A stretch of DNA of 44,967 nt from an uncultured Elusimicrobia bacterium (GTDB lineage: Bacteria; Elusimicrobiota; Elusimicrobia; UBA1565; UBA9628). Shown one piece after another: positions 32,072 to 44,166 of this stretch. The notes under the pieces are model-generated. The model saw nothing but the letters and a program-made list of their open reading frames with translations, was not told where the DNA came from and did not search any database. The DNA lies in assembly GCA_903881545.1 (NCBI GenBank), contig CAIRTQ010000024.1:1-44967 (forward strand), given 5' to 3'. The number at the start of each line of letters is the position of its first letter. Within the stretch, counting starts at the first letter, position 1. Made by a program: the position numbers and the translations under genes.

Positions 32072-33898
32072 TCAGCGCTTATGCCTTAAGGCAAGCTGGA
32101 GGTTCCTGCTGGCCTGCGCGTTATTGGAATCTATCTCCATTTCCAAGCGGAACTGCGCGATAGCCTCGTCCAATCGGCCCTGCCTGGCAAGGCACGAGCC
32201 CAAATTCAAATGCAATCCGGGGCGGCTCCCATCGATGATGACCGCGCGCCGAAACTGCTCCACCGCGTCCTGAAGATGGCCCTGAGCGGCCAGCGCGATG
32301 CCGAGGTTCGCCAGACACTCGACATCGTCAGGCCGAATCGCTAGCGACTCAGCGTACCAACTGGCCGCATCGGAAGATCTTCCCTGCGCCAACAGGAGAT
32401 TCCCCTTGGCGCGCAGCGCGGCGCTGAGGTTGTACAAAGTGTCCTGGTGGCGCGGACTGATGGCCAGGCCTTTGCGGTATTCCTGGATCGCCTCGTCGAA
32501 CCGCCCTTTTTCCACCAAGGCGACTCCCAAGTTCATATGGGCCATGGTGAATTCGGGGTCGTGCGATATCGTGTATCGCCACAAGCCCTCGGAATCATGC
32601 CAGACATCGATCTGCCGCCAAGTCAGAATGGCAAGCCCGCAGAGCAACATCCCTGCCAGAATCAGGGCCGGCTTCGCCAGGGCGCGCGCGCCGCGCAGAA
32701 GTCGGCCCATAGCGCCACCGACCAAGACAGCCCAGCCCAGGCAGGAAAGGTAGGAATAGCGGTCAGCCACCAACTGCGAGCCGAACTTGAACACGCCGGC
32801 CATAGGGGCCAATGTCACCAGGTAGAACACCCAGACTGCAAGAACCCCCGGGTAGGATCTCCTGGCCGCGAACGCTCCCATGCTGATTCCTGCGATGATG
32901 CCGGCACACAGCAAGATGTCCGGCGAGGACAGCCCGATATCCGCCGTTGCTTTATAGGCGGGCAAGAGGCCCAAAGGCAGCAGCGTCTTCCAAATGTAGA
33001 ACACATAGCCATAGCACGCCTGCGCCGCGCGGGCGGATACGGGCAGGCGCTCCAAAGAGGGCACGAAGGCGGAATTAGCTTGCCCCCCGACCCCGACCAC
33101 GGCGATCAGCAGGGCCGGGAGAAGGCAGATCATCTTTTCCATCAATATCGTCCGGGCGGGCGGCTTCAACCAGGTCGTGGGATTGCCCGGCAGCCTGCGC
33201 AAAGGATAGACATCCAACAACAGCAAGATGGCCGGCAGGGTAACCCCGCTTCCTTTCCCCAGCAATGACATCACGAACGCGACGACAGAGCAGCCCTTGA
33301 GCCGACGGCGCCGCGTGAAGTCCTGTTCTACGGCGGCGCTCAAGTAGGCCCACATCGCTAGAAGATAAAACAGGCCAGAAACGACATCTCGGCGCTCGGT
33401 GATCCAGGTCACGGACTCCACGCGCAATGGGTGGATCGCAAAGAACAGGGCGCCTGCGGCGGCCGCGACTGTCACGGCGCCGTCATCTGCCCGGGTAAAG
33501 GCCGGTAGCGCCCTCCTCAGAAGGAGGCGGCACACGCCGTAAAAAACCGCAGCGTTGGCGGCATGGAAGAGGATGTTCGTCAAATGATAGCCGAATGGAT
33601 CCATGCCCCATACCCTGAAATCCAGCGCGTAAGTGATCCAGGTCAAGGGCATATAGAGGCCCATCCAAGTACTGCCGAACATCCAGCGCAGATGGGCCCA
33701 GCTGAATCCGCGATAATGGGGGTTGTTGAGCAGCAGCATGGGGTCATCGAAATTGACGAACCCGTTCCTCAGAGAAGGCGCGAAGACCGCCAGCGCTAGG
33801 AGAGCCACGGCAACCGGAGGCAACCACTCCCTCAGATGGCTGGGGGTCCGGGGAGCAGAGTGGGCTTGCGACTGCCGCGAAGGATGCCTAGTGTCCAT
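32072..33898 (-). CDS. TMTC-like GT-C membrane protein with TPR domain (copy 1)
   Basis: A 608-residue protein with about 10-11 membrane segments (roughly 30-420) and a C-terminal TPR domain (about 435-605). The first loop holds FVNFDDPMLLLNNPHYRG, whose adjacent acidic pair is the usual GT-C catalytic motif. The stretch PLTWITYALDFRVWGMDPFGYHLTNILFHAANA, the HPLRVESVTWITERRDV box and the ADRYSYLSCLG box match bacterial relatives of eukaryotic TMTC O-mannosyltransferases. It likely uses a polyprenyl-linked sugar to modify proteins in the periplasm; this is family knowledge, not shown here. A close paralogue lies at 41989-44166. The ATG at 33898 is chosen over an upstream TTG. Confidence 0.82.
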   Translation of the reverse strand: MDTRHPSRQSQAHSAPRTPSHLREWLPPVAVALLALAVFAPSLRNGFVNFDDPMLLLNNPHYRGFSWAHLRWMFGSTWMGLYMPLTWITYALDFRVWGMDPFGYHLTNILFHAANAAVFYGVCRLLLRRALPAFTRADDGAVTVAAAAGALFFAIHPLRVESVTWITERRDVVSGLFYLLAMWAYLSAAVEQDFTRRRRLKGCSVVAFVMSLLGKGSGVTLPAILLLLDVYPLRRLPGNPTTWLKPPARTILMEKMICLLPALLIAVVGVGGQANSAFVPSLERLPVSARAAQACYGYVFYIWKTLLPLGLLPAYKATADIGLSSPDILLCAGIIAGISMGAFAARRSYPGVLAVWVFYLVTLAPMAGVFKFGSQLVADRYSYLSCLGWAVLVGGAMGRLLRGARALAKPALILAGMLLCGLAILTWRQIDVWHDSEGLWRYTISHDPEFTMAHMNLGVALVEKGRFDEAIQEYRKGLAISPRHQDTLYNLSAALRAKGNLLLAQGRSSDAASWYAESLAIRPDDVECLANLGIALAAQGHLQDAVEQFRRAVIIDGSRPGLHLNLGSCLARQGRLDEAIAQFRLEMEIDSNNAQASRNLQLALRHKR

Positions 33899-33941
33899 CA
33901 AGTTGGATGGTGGCCGGTATATGACTAGCCTTCCACGCTCC

Positions 33942-35127
33942 TCACCGCACGACCGGAAAGGAGCGGTCCTTAGCCCGGGCGCGAGTCATGGTGACGTTGG
34001 CGTCGCGGATATCTCCTTTCTCATCGAAAGCGATGGCTCCTGATATTCCCTCGTGGCGGGATCCCTGAATGGCGGCGACCAGCCCGGCCCGGTCCGGCCC
34101 AGCGCGCGCCAGGGCCTCGATCACGATGTGCGCGGCCTCGTAGCCAAGATGGTCGAATGGCCGCACACCCTCGGACTTGCCGGTCCATCGGGCTCGATAG
34201 TCCGCCAAGAATGGCCCTGATGCGGAGAACGACTCGACCGGAAGGCCCCCCATGCTCAGGTACGCGCCGTCGGCGGCCGAGCCGGCCACATCAAAGAGCG
34301 CCGGCGTTCGGGCGCCATCCCCGGAACAAAACACCGCCGGGTAACGCTCCTGCCTCATCGCCCTGAGTATAAGCCCCGCCTCGGGATACCTGCCACCGAA
34401 GAACAGGCCCTCTGGCCTTCCCGCCCGCAAGCGCTTAAGCGCCGCGCGCGGATCGCGGGTCCCGACCGGGACAATGGCTTCGGCTGCAACCTTGCCGCCC
34501 AGACTCACGAAGGTCTTTCGGAATATATCGGCCAACCCTCGGCCGTAGAGCGTGCCGTCGTGCGCCACGGCCATGCGCCGTTTGCCCAGCCGCGAGCGCA
34601 TGAACCTTGCGGCGAAAGCCCCCTGGACATCATCAGTCGGAACAAGCCGAAAGATGACGCGGGCGCCCCGCCAGCCGGGACGCAATTGCGCCCGAGTGAG
34701 GTCGGTGCTGGTGGAGGCGGGGGATATCATGACCAGCGGGGTTTGCGCGTAGACCTGCGCCGCGCTTGCGGAGCAGTCGGAATCGTAGTGCCCTATCACG
34801 GCCACGATGCGGGGATCGTCCACGATCAGATGGGCCACGTTGTATGCCTCGACCGGATCGGCTCGGTCGTCAAAAGCAGCGACCTGGACTCGGAAGGGCA
34901 ATCTCCCCCGGGCATTGGCTTGCTCCACGGCCAGGATCACGGCGCGTCTCAGGCCCTGGCCCTCGCTGGCCAAATCTCCGGTCAGGGGGCAGCGCCACCG
35001 CGATGCGGACGACCTTCTGCCGGGAGCCGCATCCTGCCACCGCCACGATCCCGCCCATAGTGACGGAACAGACCCATAAGGCAGTGCGGAGCCTAACGCT
35101 TCTCTTGGGGATTATTGCCGACATCAT
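33942..35127 (-). pseudogene. branched-chain amino-acid ABC transporter substrate-binding lipoprotein, frameshifted
   Basis: Two overlapping frames together make one periplasmic-binding protein of the LivJ/Peripla_BP_6 family. The N-terminal frame (from ATG 35127 or 35124) has a signal peptide and lipobox (AVAGC) and reads VVRIAVALP, then loses homology. The -1/+1 neighbour frame begins DLASEGQGLRRAVILAVEQANA and continues to the end: AVIGHYDSDCSASAAQVYAQ, ISPASTSTDLT, LVPTDDVQGA. The switch falls in a five-base G run (34985-34989, C on the coding strand). Removing one base gives the textbook ALPLTGDLASEGQ and an intact 393-residue protein. It may be a true decay, a slippage site or an assembly error. 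No LivHMGF permease or ATPase gene is adjacent. Confidence 0.85.
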
Positions 35128-35140
35128 CAAAAGGTGTCCC

Positions 35141-35169
35141 ACTATAGCCAAATCCGCGGCGCGTTGCAA
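35141..35169 (-). promoter_or_regulatory. promoter of the amino-acid-binding lipoprotein gene
   Basis: On the minus strand TTGCAA (35169-35164), an exact 17-base spacer and TATAGT (35146-35141) precede the ATG at 35127. The predicted start is about 7 bases from the ATG. The -35 hexamer is the same six base pairs used on the plus strand by the shc promoter. Confidence 0.55.
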
Positions 35170-35193
35170 CCCGTCGAAGCATTCAAGTATAAT
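35164..35193 (+). promoter_or_regulatory. shc promoter, near-leaderless
   Basis: TTGCAA (35164-35169), an 18-base spacer and a perfect TATAAT (35188-35193) sit 8 bases before the ATG at 35202. Transcription should begin about 35200, so the shc mRNA would have essentially no leader and no ribosome site. Confidence 0.6.
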
Positions 35194-35201
35194 TTTTGAT
35201 C

Positions 35202-37301
35202 ATGATAAGAAGAATAGTTCCAGAATGGCTGGTGCCGCTGGAACGCACTTATCGAAAACCGAAGGATTGGGCGGACAATCTCAAGCCGGCCCTCGTCGCG
35301 CCCCCCTCTCATCCGGACATCCCGAACGAACTGCGGCACAGCATCCGGATGGCCCAGGAGGCGGTGCTGCGTTCCCAGGACAAGGAAGAGGGCTTTTGGT
35401 GCGCCGACCTGAAGGCCGACACGACCATCGCCTCCGATACCATCATGCTCCTCAATTTTCTGGGCCGGGGCAATTCCGTCAAGGTCCGCAAGCTCGCCAA
35501 CCATCTCCTTAACGAACAGCTCCCCTGCGGCGGCTGGCCCATCTTCCGCAACGGCCCGGCCGAGATATCGGCCACGGTCAAGGCCTATTGGGCGCTCAAA
35601 TTCGCAGAACATTCCCCCAACGAACCGCGCATGGCCGCGGCGCGGCGGCGCATCCGGGAACTGGGCGGCATCCACAAGGTCAACACCTATCTCAAATTCT
35701 ACATGGCCATCTTCGGCCAATATGACTGGCGCGGCGTTCCCTCCATCCCGCCGGAGTTGATGCTCTTTCCAAAGTGGTTCTATTTCAACATCTATGAGAT
35801 GTCCTCCTGGACCCGCGCCATCGTGGTGCCGCTCTCCATCGTCTGGGCCTATCAGCCGGCCATCCCCTGCCCCCCCAAAGCCGTCTTGAATGAACTATTC
35901 CCGGATTCCCGCCGGCATGTTACGCTCAAGGACGCCGTCGAGCCGCACCGGCTCGCGTCTTGGACCAGCTTCTTCCTGATCTGGGACCGGCTGCTCAAGA
36001 CCCTGGAAGGCCGCGGCGGGCGTTGGATACGGGTCTGGGCCTTGCGCTTGGCCGAAGACTGGATGCTGGAACGCTTCCAAAACTCCGACGGCCTCGGCGC
36101 CATCTATCCGAGCATCGTCAACTCCATCATGGCCATGAAGTGTCTGGGCTACCCCGACACGGACCCCCGCCTGGTGGAGCAGCTCCAGCACCTCGACCGC
36201 TTGGAACTGCCCGACCCCGACGGAAAATCCACCCAATGGCAGCCCTGCCGATCCCCTGTCTGGGATACCGCCATCTCGGTCATCGCCTTGGCCGAGTCCG
36301 GCCTGCAGCGGGACCACCCTGCTTTGGTCGCCTCCGCCAAATGGCTCATCTCCAAGGAAATCAAGACCGCCGGGGACTGGAAGGTGACCAACCCCTCCGG
36401 CCCCGTGGGCGGATGGGCCTTCGAGTTCAACAATGCCTTCTACCCCGATATAGACGATTCGGCCATGGTCATGCTTGCCCTGCGCCATGTCCATATGGAC
36501 GAACAGGCCGCGCACCTTAGAGAAAAGGCCTGCTTGCGGGGTCTCAATTGGCTCTTGTCCATGCAATCCAAGACCGGCGGCTGGGCCGCCTTCGACAAGG
36601 ACAACACCAAGGTCATCCTCACCAAAATCCCCTTCGCTGACCACAACGCGATGATCGACCCCCCTTGGGCCGATGTCACCGGCCGCGTGCTCGAATTCCT
36701 GGGCTACATCGGCTACGACCAGGACTTCCCGGCGGTGGCCCGAGCCGTGCGCTTCCTGCGCCGGGAGCAGGAGGAAGACGGCTCCTGGTTCGGCCGTTGG
36801 GGCGTCAACTACATATATGGCACCTGGCAAGTCCTGCGCGGGTTGGCCGCCATCGACGAGGACATGTCGCAGCCTTATGTCCAGCGCGCCGTGGAATGGC
36901 TCAAGTCCGTTCAACTGCCGGATGGCGGATGGGGCGAGACCTGCGCAACCTACCACGACCCTTCCCTGAAGGGCAAAGGGCCGGCCACTCCTTCGCAGAC
37001 GGCATGGGCCATCATGGGGCTCATGTCCGCGGGCGTCTACGATGAATCCGTGTGCGGCGGCGTGGAATATCTGGTCCGCACCCAGAAAGAGGACGGCACC
37101 TGGGATGAAAGCGAGTGCACGGGCACGGGTTTCCCCAAAGTCTATTACCTGGAGTACACCATGTACCGCAACTACTTCCCTCTCCATGCCCTCGGCGTCT
37201 ATCAGTCGGCCCTGGGCGTAGCGTTACGCGACGGCACGGCCCGCGCCGCCGCGCCGAACGGGGATGCCTTGTTCCCTTCGGGGAAAGGCATCGGCGCCTA
37301 G
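35202..37301 (+). CDS. shc: squalene-hopene cyclase
   Basis: A 699-residue type II triterpene cyclase that folds squalene into hopene/hopanol, the first hopanoid-specific step, at the inner membrane. The catalytic acid motif DIDD (Asp416-Asp419) is intact. QW repeats are clear: QSKTGGWAAFDKDN, QEEDGSWFGRWG, QLPDGGWGE and QKEDGTWDESECTGTGFP, the last being the usual C-terminal signature before YYLEYTMYRNYFPLHALG. It has Pro-rich N-terminal residues and is longer than the roughly 630-residue Alicyclobacillus enzyme, like proteobacterial HpnF. I chose ATG 35202 over the TTG at 35196 because the -10 element lies directly upstream. It is followed after two bases by hpnH. Confidence 0.97.
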   Translation: MIRRIVPEWLVPLERTYRKPKDWADNLKPALVAPPSHPDIPNELRHSIRMAQEAVLRSQDKEEGFWCADLKADTTIASDTIMLLNFLGRGNSVKVRKLANHLLNEQLPCGGWPIFRNGPAEISATVKAYWALKFAEHSPNEPRMAAARRRIRELGGIHKVNTYLKFYMAIFGQYDWRGVPSIPPELMLFPKWFYFNIYEMSSWTRAIVVPLSIVWAYQPAIPCPPKAVLNELFPDSRRHVTLKDAVEPHRLASWTSFFLIWDRLLKTLEGRGGRWIRVWALRLAEDWMLERFQNSDGLGAIYPSIVNSIMAMKCLGYPDTDPRLVEQLQHLDRLELPDPDGKSTQWQPCRSPVWDTAISVIALAESGLQRDHPALVASAKWLISKEIKTAGDWKVTNPSGPVGGWAFEFNNAFYPDIDDSAMVMLALRHVHMDEQAAHLREKACLRGLNWLLSMQSKTGGWAAFDKDNTKVILTKIPFADHNAMIDPPWADVTGRVLEFLGYIGYDQDFPAVARAVRFLRREQEEDGSWFGRWGVNYIYGTWQVLRGLAAIDEDMSQPYVQRAVEWLKSVQLPDGGWGETCATYHDPSLKGKGPATPSQTAWAIMGLMSAGVYDESVCGGVEYLVRTQKEDGTWDESECTGTGFPKVYYLEYTMYRNYFPLHALGVYQSALGVALRDGTARAAAPNGDALFPSGKGIGA

Positions 37302-37303
37302 AG

Positions 37304-38377
37304 ATGCCATCCCCTTTACCCCTACAGTTGGCCGTCTTCCGCTATGTCCTCGGCCACAAGATACGCCGGACGCCGCGTTTCCCTCTCGTGCTCATGCTCG
37401 AGCCGCTCTTCGCCTGCAATCTGGAATGCGCTGGCTGCGGCAAGGTGCAGCACCCGCCCGAAATCCTCAACAAGCGCCTCTCTCCGGAAGAGTGTTGGAA
37501 GGCGGCCGAGGAGTGCGGCGCGCCCGTGGTCTCTATTGCCGGCGGAGAACCGCTCATCCACCCTCAGATCGACGACATCGTCAACGGCCTAATCAAACGC
37601 GGCAAGTTCGTCTTCCTGTGCACCAACGCCCTCCTTTTAGAGCGCAGCCTGCACCGCTTCAAGCCCAGCAGCCACCTCATCCTCTCGGTCCATTTGGACG
37701 GCCGGGAGTCGGTGCACGACAAGATCGTCTGCCGGGAGGGAGTGCACCGGACCGCGGTTTCCGCCATCAAGGCGGCCAAGGCCCGGGGCTTCCGGGTCAT
37801 GACCAACTCCACCATCTTCCAGGGCCAGGACCCGGAGGAGTTCCGCCGTTTTTGCGCGGAGTTGGCGGCCCTGGGAACCGACGGCATCATGATAGCGCCC
37901 GGCTTCGCCTACGGCAAGGCCAAGGACAAGGGACTCTTCCTCAGGGTCGAAGAGACCAAGGCCTGGTTCCAAAAGGCTCTGAAGGACTGGCGCAAGATGG
38001 GCTGGGATTTCAATCATAGCCCGTTCTATCTGGATTTCCTCGAAGGCAAGCGCGATTACGATTGCACGCCCTGGGGCCTGCCCCTGCGCAACGTCCTGGG
38101 TTGGCAGAGGCCTTGTTATCTGTTCGAAGAAGGCGGCTACGCCAAGACTTACCAGGAACTGCTCGACTCCACGCCTTGGGAGAAATACGGCCGGGCCGCG
38201 AAGCATCCGGCCTGCGCGCACTGCATGTCCCATGTCGGGTTCGAGCCGTCATCCGTGGTCGACGCGTTCTCTTCCCCCCGCAAGTTCCTGGAATTGGTCT
38301 GGGACTTCGCGACCATCCGCGGCCCGCGCAAGGCTCAAGCGGCTCATCCCGCTCGGCAACCGGAGCCAAAAGGCTGA
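37304..38377 (+). CDS. hpnH: adenosyl-hopene transferase HpnH (radical SAM)
   Basis: A 357-residue radical SAM enzyme that adds a 5'-deoxyadenosyl group to hopene (diploptene), starting the extended C35 side chain. The cluster motif is CNLECAGC (Cys38, Cys42, Cys45). GEPLIHPQID and the C-terminal Cys-rich region (YGRAAKHPACAHCMSHVGFEPS) are typical of the family. The opening PLQLAVFRYVLGHKIRRTPRFPLVLMLEPLFACN is diagnostic. The ATG lies two bases beyond the shc stop, with the stop and start of neighbours tightly packed, so shc-hpnH-hpnA are probably one transcript. Confidence 0.97.
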   Translation: MPSPLPLQLAVFRYVLGHKIRRTPRFPLVLMLEPLFACNLECAGCGKVQHPPEILNKRLSPEECWKAAEECGAPVVSIAGGEPLIHPQIDDIVNGLIKRGKFVFLCTNALLLERSLHRFKPSSHLILSVHLDGRESVHDKIVCREGVHRTAVSAIKAAKARGFRVMTNSTIFQGQDPEEFRRFCAELAALGTDGIMIAPGFAYGKAKDKGLFLRVEETKAWFQKALKDWRKMGWDFNHSPFYLDFLEGKRDYDCTPWGLPLRNVLGWQRPCYLFEEGGYAKTYQELLDSTPWEKYGRAAKHPACAHCMSHVGFEPSSVVDAFSSPRKFLELVWDFATIRGPRKAQAAHPARQPEPKG

Positions 38378-39426
38378 TGGACGCCGCCTTCGTCACCGGC
38401 GGCACCGGGTTCGTGGGCGCCAACCTCGTGCGCCTGCTCCTGGAAAAGGGGCTTCGGGTCAAGGCGCTGGTCCGCAAGAACAGCAACCGCAAGAATCTTG
38501 ATGGCCTCGATCTGGAGCTTGTTGAGGGCGATCTGCTTGACCAATCGGCTCTGCGCGCCGGTTGTTCCGGAGCCCGCTACGCCTTCCATGTGGCCGCCGA
38601 TTACCGCATCTGGGTGCCGGACCCCGCGGCCATGAACGCGGCCAATGTCCAGGGCACGGTCAATGTGATCCAAGCCGCGGCTGCGGCCGGAACGGAACGG
38701 ATCGTCTATTGTTCCAGCGTGGCCGCCATCAAGCCTCCGCACGACCGCATCCCAGTGGATGAGCGTTCTTACTACGCGGGCGCGGCAGAGATTCCCGGCG
38801 TCTACAAGCAATCAAAATTCCTGGCGGAAATGGCCGCGCTGGACCTGGCTCGGCAAGGCCATCCCGTGGTGGTGGTCAACCCGGCGGCGCCCGTCGGGCC
38901 GTTCGATATCAAGCCCACGCCTACGGGCCGGATCATCCTCGACTTCCTCAACGGCCGGATGCCTTCCTACATAGACACGGGGCTTAATGTGGTCCATGTG
39001 CGCGATGTGGCTATCGGCCATTGGCTAGCCGCGGAGAAAGGCCGCGTCGGACAACGATATATCCTGGGCGGAGAAAACCTGACCTTCAAGCAAATCTTGG
39101 GCATACTTTCTGAGATCACCGGCTTGCCTGCGCCGCGCTTCAAAACGCCTTACGCAGTCGCCTATGCGTTCGCCACAATCGATACCGCCTGGTCCAGGCT
39201 CACGGGCGGCGAACCGCGGGCGCCTCTCGACGCGGTCCGCATGGCCAGGCATTTCATGTGGTATGATTCTGAGAAAGCTGTCCGGGAGTTGGGCTATGCC
39301 CCAGTCCCGGCCAAGCGGGCCTTGGCTGATGCTGTAGCATGGTTCCAGGCTAATGGCTATGTCAAGATGGCCGTTGGTAGAAAATCGGTGCCGGTCTCTA
39401 AGCATATTACAAGCGAGGCTGAATGA
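38377..39426 (+). CDS. hpnA: hopanoid-associated NAD-dependent epimerase/dehydrogenase HpnA
   Basis: A 349-residue extended short-chain dehydrogenase. The N-terminal NAD(P) motif TGGTGFVG (8-15) is followed by the SSVAAIK and GVYKQSKFLAE stretches; the latter holds the usual Tyr-x3-Lys pair. VVVVNPAAPVGPFDIKPTPTGRIILDFLNGRMPSYIDTGLNVVHVRDVA is the HpnA signature. Its precise reaction in hopanoid side-chain synthesis is unproven. The ATG overlaps the hpnH stop (TGATG). The 36-base gap after it leads into small genes that do not belong to the pathway and separate hpnA from hpnG. Confidence 0.94.
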   Translation: MDAAFVTGGTGFVGANLVRLLLEKGLRVKALVRKNSNRKNLDGLDLELVEGDLLDQSALRAGCSGARYAFHVAADYRIWVPDPAAMNAANVQGTVNVIQAAAAAGTERIVYCSSVAAIKPPHDRIPVDERSYYAGAAEIPGVYKQSKFLAEMAALDLARQGHPVVVVNPAAPVGPFDIKPTPTGRIILDFLNGRMPSYIDTGLNVVHVRDVAIGHWLAAEKGRVGQRYILGGENLTFKQILGILSEITGLPAPRFKTPYAVAYAFATIDTAWSRLTGGEPRAPLDAVRMARHFMWYDSEKAVRELGYAPVPAKRALADAVAWFQANGYVKMAVGRKSVPVSKHITSEAE

Positions 39427-41668: not shown

Positions 41669-41971
41669 ATGAGCGAAGAAACCAAGACCTTGACCAAGGA
41701 AGACTACGCCGTCGATACGCCGGCGGCTCCCCCGGCCGATGTCACCAAGGGAGAGACCGACATCAAAAAGATCCCGCAGCGCCGCCCCCCCAAGGACGGC
41801 CCCTGCAAACGCTGCGGCCAGGACAAGCCCCTCAACCGCCTCATGCTCTGCTATCCCTGCTGGGTCAAGACTGAGTTGGAAAAGCACGACTGGCGGGAAG
41901 GCATGCCTCATCCGGATTGGTGCCGCTGCGAAGGGATCAAGGACCACTCTCGAAAATCGGACGGGAACTGA
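41669..41971 (+). CDS. small Cys-rich zinc-binding protein of unknown function
   Basis: A 100-residue protein. An acidic, Thr/Ala/Pro-rich N-terminal half is followed by a Cys cluster, CKRCGQ, CYPCW and WCRCEG, giving six Cys likely to bind one or two zinc ions. I recognise no family beyond a treble-clef or ribbon-like pattern. The start at 41669 has a clear GGGAGG site 9 bases before it; an upstream in-frame ATG at 41636 lacks one. It follows ispA by 60 bases on the same strand. No function is proposed. Confidence 0.65.
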   Translation: MSEETKTLTKEDYAVDTPAAPPADVTKGETDIKKIPQRRPPKDGPCKRCGQDKPLNRLMLCYPCWVKTELEKHDWREGMPHPDWCRCEGIKDHSRKSDGN

Positions 41972-41988
41972 GGCCGGGCGATAGCCGC

Positions 41989-44166
41989 TTGAAGGAAGTT
42001 TCCGCCGGTATTCCTGGGCGCCGGACCGCGTGGCTTGCCCCCACGCTGGTCGCTCTGGCGACCATCGCCGTCTTTTCCGGCGCCCTGCGCAACGGGTTCT
42101 TGAATTGGGACGACAATGTCAACTTCCTAACCAACCCGCATTACCGCGGCCTGGGCTGGGCCAACCTGCGCTGGATGTTCACCACCCTGCACCTGGGCCC
42201 CTACCAGCCGCTCAGTTGGCTGACATGCGCCCTGGATTATCTCCTCTGGGGCATGAACCCCATCGGCTATCATCTGACCAATGTCCTGCTGCACGCCGCC
42301 AATGCCGTGATGTTCTATGAGGTATCGTTGTGGTTCCTGTCCCGTGCGCCCGTTCCATCCGCTGGCCCCGGCCTGTCTCCCCGCGTCGCCGCAGCCTTGG
42401 CGGCGCTCCTGTTCGCCCTCCACCCTTTAAGGGTGGAATCCGTCGCCTGGATCACGGAGCGCAGGGATGTCCTTTCCGGGCTCTTCTACCTGTGGGCGGC
42501 ATACGCTTACCTGCGCCAGCACGAAGTGCTGGGCCGGTCCGACAGAGGATGGCAGCTCCAGTGTTGGGCCGCTTTTGCGCTCGCGCTCTTGGCCAAGGGC
42601 ATCGTCATCACCTTGCCCGCCGTCCTGCTCGCCCTGGATTTCTATCCTTTACGCAGGCTGCCCAGCGAGGCCAGACGCTGGTTCGATGCGAACTGCCGCC
42701 ATGTCTGGCTGGAAAAGCTGCCATTCCTGGCGCCCGCCCTGCTCATCGCTCTGGTCGGAATTATTGGACAGCGGCACGCGCAGGCAGTCCTCGCGGAAAG
42801 CTCCGCCGCGCATGCCGCGAAGGCGTGCTATGGCCTGGCCTTCTATCTTTGGAAGACGATCTGGCCCGCCGCTCTGTGCCCGATGTATGAGTCTCCTCTG
42901 CCGCTGGACCCCCTCGCTTGGCCGTTCTTGCTCAGCGCCGCAGCGGTCGCGCTCATCACTTGGCGCCTGTTCCTATGTCGCAAACGCTGGCCGGCCGGCC
43001 TGACGGCTTGGGTCTGCTACGCTGTCACATTGTCTCCTGTCCTCGGCCTTATCCCCTTCGGTCCGCAACTGGCGGCGGACCGGTACAGCTACCTGGCTTG
43101 CCTGCCGTGGCCGCTCTTGGCCGCATCGGGCTTCACCTGGGCCTGGCCGAGGGCCAAGGCCAGGGGCCGCGCCGCGCTTGGCCTTGCCGCAGTCATGGCG
43201 CTCGCAAGCCTGGCTGGCCTTACCTGGCGGCAGATTGGGTTCTGGCGCGACTCGGCGTCGTTGTGGAGCCGAGTCCTCGATGTTCGCCCTCGGACTGAAA
43301 TAGCCCATGTGAATCTCGGCATCGCGCTGGCCGAGCAAGGCAAGGGGGATGAAGCAATCTCCCATTACCGGGAAGCTCTGAGCATCCGGCCGGACCATGC
43401 CGAGGTTCTTGGCAATTGGGGGCTTGCCCTGGCCGGCCAGGGCAAGGTGGAGGAGGCGATTGCGCAGTACCGCGAGGCCCTGAGGCTCAAACCTTTATAC
43501 GCCGAAGCCTGCAATAACTGGGCGAACGCCTTGAAACAGGCCGGCCGGATGAAAGAGGCTACCGCGCAGTACCGTGAAGCGTTGCGGCTCAAGCCAAATT
43601 TCCCTGAAGCGCGCGCCAACCTGGCGCTGGTCCTGGCTGGGCAGGGCAAGGCGGAGGAGGCAATCGCGCAGTACCGGGAGGCTCTGCGGCTCGACCCGGG
43701 CGATGCGCGGGCTCAAGAGAACCTGGCCGCGGCTTTGGCCGGACAGGGCAAAATGGCGGAGGCGATCGCGCATTACCACGAAGCTTTGCAGCTGGCCCCC
43801 GGCCGCGCCGCGGCGCACAACAACCTGGGCCAGGCATTAGCCGTACAAGGCCAGCTGGAAGAAGCGGCCAGCCATTGCCGGGAAGCCCTAAGGCTCCAGC
43901 CGGACCTGGCCGAGGCCCATTTCAACCTGGGCAATATCCTCGCCGTGCAGGCCAAGGCGGAGGAGGCGGCCGCGCAGTATCGTGCCGCCTTGCTCATCAA
44001 GCCCGCCTTCGTCGACGCGCATAACAACCTGGGCATCGTCCTGTTCAAACAGGGCAAGCCTGAGGACGCGCGGCGGGAGTGGCAGGAAACGCTGAGGCTC
44101 GACCCGCGACGCGAGTCAACGCGCCGGAATCTGGAGATCCTGCGGCGCGAGCTCGGCAAACAGTAG
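41989..44166 (+). CDS. TMTC-like GT-C membrane protein with long TPR domain (copy 2)
   Basis: A protein of about 725 residues, clearly paralogous to the gene at 32072-33898. Shared blocks are FLNWDD...NPHYRGLGWANLRWMF, GYHLTNVLLHAANA, HPLRVESVAWITERRDVLSG and ADRYSYLACL. About 10 membrane segments come first, then eight or so 34-residue TPRs with near-repeated EEAIAQYREALRLKP, whose DNA also repeats. The FLNWDD acidic pair fits a GT-C active site. No ATG exists before the first helix; I use the TTG at 41989, with an earlier TTG at 41917 overlapping the zinc protein as an alternative. The TPR region is longer than in copy 1, consistent with repeat expansion. Confidence 0.8.
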   Translation: MKEVSAGIPGRRTAWLAPTLVALATIAVFSGALRNGFLNWDDNVNFLTNPHYRGLGWANLRWMFTTLHLGPYQPLSWLTCALDYLLWGMNPIGYHLTNVLLHAANAVMFYEVSLWFLSRAPVPSAGPGLSPRVAAALAALLFALHPLRVESVAWITERRDVLSGLFYLWAAYAYLRQHEVLGRSDRGWQLQCWAAFALALLAKGIVITLPAVLLALDFYPLRRLPSEARRWFDANCRHVWLEKLPFLAPALLIALVGIIGQRHAQAVLAESSAAHAAKACYGLAFYLWKTIWPAALCPMYESPLPLDPLAWPFLLSAAAVALITWRLFLCRKRWPAGLTAWVCYAVTLSPVLGLIPFGPQLAADRYSYLACLPWPLLAASGFTWAWPRAKARGRAALGLAAVMALASLAGLTWRQIGFWRDSASLWSRVLDVRPRTEIAHVNLGIALAEQGKGDEAISHYREALSIRPDHAEVLGNWGLALAGQGKVEEAIAQYREALRLKPLYAEACNNWANALKQAGRMKEATAQYREALRLKPNFPEARANLALVLAGQGKAEEAIAQYREALRLDPGDARAQENLAAALAGQGKMAEAIAHYHEALQLAPGRAAAHNNLGQALAVQGQLEEAASHCREALRLQPDLAEAHFNLGNILAVQAKAEEAAAQYRAALLIKPAFVDAHNNLGIVLFKQGKPEDARREWQETLRLDPRRESTRRNLEILRRELGKQ

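Follow-up and report, generated by a model that had tools for sequence, protein, structure and literature searches.

A conserved pair of divergent promoters in Elusimicrobia predicted to share one palindromic -35 hexamer

Overlapping promoters that stand back to back between divergent genes form a classical category. A more narrowly defined group, the bidirectional promoters described by Warman, Grainger and colleagues (PMC12825309; for Salmonella plasmids, PMC10268837), is characterized by a shared -10 element and by transcription starts that lie 7–25 bp apart. Here we describe a locus between shc and a lipoprotein gene on contig C24 of a 2.94-Mb draft genome, whose G+C content is ~62% in a sample and whose named relatives are Elusimicrobia metagenome genomes. 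The stretch analyzed, which we call the window, is 44,967 nucleotides long. The locus resembles the promoters of Warman and Grainger in that one element would be used both ways, polymerase binding would be exclusive and divergent mRNAs are predicted. In contrast to those promoters, the element in common is the -35, the two -10 elements are separate (35141-35146 and 35188-35193) and the predicted starts are ~66 bp apart, which places the locus outside the definition of that group. With the classical promoters it shares divergent genes, overlapping polymerase sites and possible competition, whereas the overlap here consists of a single, perfectly palindromic -35 hexamer that is conserved across genera. 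The locus is best described as a conserved pair of overlapping divergent promoters with a predicted shared -35; the category is already known, and the shared -35 is the variation. A limited search of the open-access literature, in which the sign in '-35' is not searchable, found no described case of a shared -35. It would be a natural example, conserved in evolution, of divergent promoters that have the -35, not the -10, in common.

Promoter boxes and flanking genes

The features of the locus are summarized in Table 1. Re-reading the coordinates gave exactly the boxes and spacers of the original prediction, and its gap of 74 bases agrees with the start codons on either side. Each strand carries a -35/-10 pair whose spacing (18 and 17 bp) falls within the 16–18 bp of sigma-70-type promoters, and the two pairs overlap, as in overlapping divergent promoters of this type. 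Only 4 of the 6 bases of TTGCAA agree with the E. coli -35 consensus, which counts against its use as a shared -35. No other hexamer starts with TTG on both strands, so a shared -35 with a TTG core could only be TTGCAA.

We propose that two housekeeping-sigma promoters lie back to back with this one hexamer common to both, the lipoprotein promoter being TTGCAA/17/TATAGT and the shc promoter, in exact register with it in two genera (g1 and g11), TTGCAA/18/TATAAT. RNA polymerase would dock in one orientation at a time, which would leave one docking site for two genes. Taken as a whole, this arrangement of two divergent promoters on a single -35 is in our judgment likely.

Table 1. Positions of the genes, promoter boxes and predicted starts in the window.
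Feature	Position	Strand	Evidence or remark
Periplasmic binding-protein-like lipoprotein gene	33942..35127	-	Pfam Peripla_BP_6; frames compared with intact relatives
Five-base run (G on plus, C on minus), frame change of lipoprotein gene	34985..34989	-	compared relatives read through in one frame
Gap between the divergent genes	35128..35201		74 bases; ATG of shc at 35202 (plus), ATG of lipoprotein gene at 35127 (minus)
Lipoprotein gene, predicted transcription start	~35134	-	
TATAGT, lipoprotein gene -10	35141..35146	-	spacer 17 bp; 5/6 columns invariant in 6 genomes
TTGCAA, self-complementary -35 hexamer, predicted for both directions	35164..35169	.	invariant in 6 genomes; lipoprotein -35 in 11
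TATAAT, shc -10	35188..35193	+	spacer 18 bp; 8 bp to ATG; invariant in 6 genomes
shc, predicted transcription start	~35200	+	
shc, squalene-hopene cyclase, 699 aa	35202..37301	+	TIGR01507 730 bits; Pfam SQHop_cyclase N and C
hpnH, adenosyl-hopene transferase, directly after shc	37304..38377	+	TIGR03470 467 bits
hpnA, hopanoid-associated sugar epimerase	38377..39426	+	TIGR03466 460 bits

Since hpnH and hpnA come after shc, the shc promoter probably heads a hopanoid operon. The gene on the minus strand, which has a second ATG at 35124, had been taken for an amino-acid-binding lipoprotein. This specificity was not borne out: all that lies behind it is the general fold-family match (Peripla_BP_6), and the score against the NCBIfam branched-chain amino-acid model is far below the cut-off. 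The frame of the lipoprotein signal peptide and lipobox (VAGC) differs from that of the mature protein. The remaining 343 codons of the gene form an open frame, which indicates that the frame break is either a recent event, making the gene a pseudogene, or an assembly error.

Conservation and history of the hexamer

To locate the layout elsewhere, the pattern TATA-N16-18-TTGCAA-N17-19-TATAAT and a reversed control were searched in 56 genomes of the order. The pattern matched six times, in six different genomes belonging to genus g1 (G000, G003, G004 and G006) and genus g11 (G016 and G022), and every match lies within the shc/lipoprotein gap; the reversed control gave no match in the same 56 genomes. 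With the pattern relaxed, 782 kb of the window's genome contained a single occurrence, and four control hexamers placed in the relaxed pattern gave none. In the alignment of the six genomes, 17 of the 18 box columns are invariant compared with 2 of the 35 spacer columns (Fisher p = 9e-11, a value that ignores phylogeny). Between g1 and g11, the three boxes are identical at 17–18 of 18 positions and the spacers at 10–12 of 35, which is close to random, so shared descent alone is a poor explanation for the conservation of the boxes. The shared -35 arrangement is beyond chance.

The original prediction had proposed a comparison of related gaps, and TTGCAA and both -10 boxes are indeed conserved together in these six genomes of two genera. 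It had also held that loss of the hexamer or of one -10 in close relatives that keep the divergent pair would speak against the idea; these six genomes show no such loss, but in other relatives the divergent pair stands in a different register. A single origin of the shared form for g1 and g11 was not upheld, the deep branches of the tree being poorly separated. A general class of such promoters throughout the phylum was dropped. Most of the other matches fall within coding frames or come from AT-rich genomes, and the phylum-wide excess over the control is about as expected, because TTGCAA is five times commoner than the control core (83 versus 17 in the sample). The two-way pattern is also found with no long open frame across it at L226, L230, L231, L234, L239, L240 and L243 in other Elusimicrobiota, where it may be due to chance in AT-rich DNA.

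TTGCAA stands 17–18 bp from the lipoprotein -10, in the position of its -35, in 11 of the 12 relatives that have a recognisable TTG-type promoter for this gene; no such promoter was recognisable in nine further relatives. Five relatives keep it for the lipoprotein gene where shc does not share it, namely three g10 genomes, in which the shc TATAAT is merely 12 bp away, G012, whose shc TATAAT is at a distance other than 18 bp, and G009, in which the gene is away from shc. In two g1 genomes whose lipoprotein gene is not beside shc (G005, and G002, which now has a tRNA-Thr gene upstream of shc), TTGCAA is absent and the shc TATAAT is retained. Judged from this distribution, TTGCAA is probably the ancestral lipoprotein -35, with the lipoprotein promoter as the older user; in g1 and g11, the promoter of shc seems to have fallen into register with this hexamer.

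Two other upstream arrangements were seen. The divergent pair stands in other registers in G012 and in G008; in the latter (L009 near 1380-1500) the promoters overlap such that TTGATA, the -35 of the lipoprotein gene, extends into the -10 of shc. The lipoprotein genes of genus g9 and of two close MAGs (L015, L030, L070, L025, L042 and L072) have another conserved block upstream of them in common, TGGACA...CAATGAGGCATAATC or a close variant of it.

TTGCAA might be the -35 of the lipoprotein promoter only, in which case the perfect -10 would suffice for shc and the spacing of 18 bp would be an inherited coincidence. Such a reading accommodates the five relatives that keep TTGCAA without sharing it, as well as the many relatives whose shc promoters have no recognisable -35. 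However, the spacer on the plus strand is 18 bp long in all six shared-layout genomes despite a nearly random spacer sequence between the genera, and the six shc promoters lack the TG extension that is present in many other relatives. Moreover, the shc promoters of four other relatives carry TTGAAC or TTGAAG with a spacing of exactly 18 bp. The constant spacer and these alternative hexamers support the use of TTGCAA by shc, and we consider it unlikely, though not negligibly so, that the lipoprotein promoter is the only user.

Competition for the shared hexamer

RNA polymerase covers a promoter from about -55 to +20, so the two sites of the shared -35 arrangement would overlap by ~45 bp and could not be filled simultaneously. 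The occupancy of one orientation at a time, as originally predicted, thus follows from the geometry. A shared site would result in graded competition, in which each rate declines smoothly as the other rises, and not in two stable states. Among five E. coli bidirectional promoters, competition was absent at basal activity and became clear once one direction was activated (PMC12825309). By analogy with these promoters, which share a -10 and not a -35, we expect that the two promoters would fire mostly independently at ordinary activity and interfere only when one of them is strongly activated, in which case a very strong promoter would hold down the other. The locus lends itself as a clean test bed for asking whether a common docking site is by itself enough to bring two genes into competition.

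The original prediction went further and described a mutual-exclusion switch that needs no regulator, in which sharing would have been selected so that the cell picks either hopanoid synthesis or the lipoprotein. No DNA-binding regulator recognisable by Pfam or NCBIfam profiles is encoded by either adjacent gene. A switch would fit the geometry, which bars double occupancy, and the conservation of the shared form in two genera; however, it would have neither feedback nor memory, and a common site yields competition instead of a bistable choice. The five E. coli promoters, with their lack of basal competition, also argue against it, as does the broken frame of the lipoprotein gene in the window. 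Furthermore, other relatives retain the gene pair without the shared register: g10, G012 and G008 place the promoters differently, which suggests that sharing is not needed. Since the lipoprotein promoter, in addition, keeps TTGCAA where shc does not use it, the palindrome does not evidently appear to have been selected as a switch. We consider a selected switch of this kind very improbable. It is likewise improbable that the palindromic -35, conserved for two promoters, was selected so that polymerase competition by itself would reciprocally control the hopanoid operon and the lipoprotein. Should competition prove weak, as we expect, the striking symmetry of the locus need not imply regulation.

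That TTGCAA is an operator through which a dimeric regulator co-controls both genes, and not a -35, is barely credible and was rejected: the hexamer is palindromic and invariant, as is one adjoining base (C), but its distance from the lipoprotein -10 is a promoter-like 17–18 bp in 11 genomes, in one of which the gene is away from shc, and in relatives the palindrome ends at the hexamer.

Leaderless start of shc

Leaderless genes whose -10 adjoins the open reading frame have been described in Deinococcus-Thermus (PMC12340547) and surveyed in other phyla (PMC3160421), and their -10 promoters can be boosted by a -35 placed 17 bp upstream; the main text of neither paper mentions Elusimicrobiota. 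Like these genes, shc has a TANNNT element a few bases upstream of its start codon and lacks a Shine-Dalgarno sequence in TTTTGATCATG; the 8 bp between its -10 and the ATG fall within the ~6–9 bp required of leaderless genes. For most relatives of the family, the distance between the shc TATAAT and the start codon is 6–12 bp. With transcription starting ~7 bp past the -10, the shc mRNA is predicted to begin at the ATG or within 2 bases of it and to be translated leaderless.

The same placement of the -10 recurs in the genome. Among 876 gene starts in 1.41 of the 2.94 Mb, called by a simple script such that the counts are approximate, 38 have a strong -10 at 5–9 bp, compared with ~7 expected per equal bin. 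Of these 38 starts, 36 have no Shine-Dalgarno sequence and 18 have a TG extension. A TTG precedes the -10 by 17–18 bp in 9 of the 38, versus 0–1 at any other single spacing, in support of this promoter grammar. Leaderless starts thus look like a real class in this genome, although, unlike in the published cases, a minority one. For Elusimicrobiota, an almost entirely uncultured and little-known phylum, these counts provide a promoter grammar as well as evidence, at the sequence level, for a class of leaderless genes.

The hopanoid genes are flanked by membrane proteins with TPR repeats, at 32072-33901 on the minus strand and at 41917-44166 on the plus strand, which are alike as compared by eye only.
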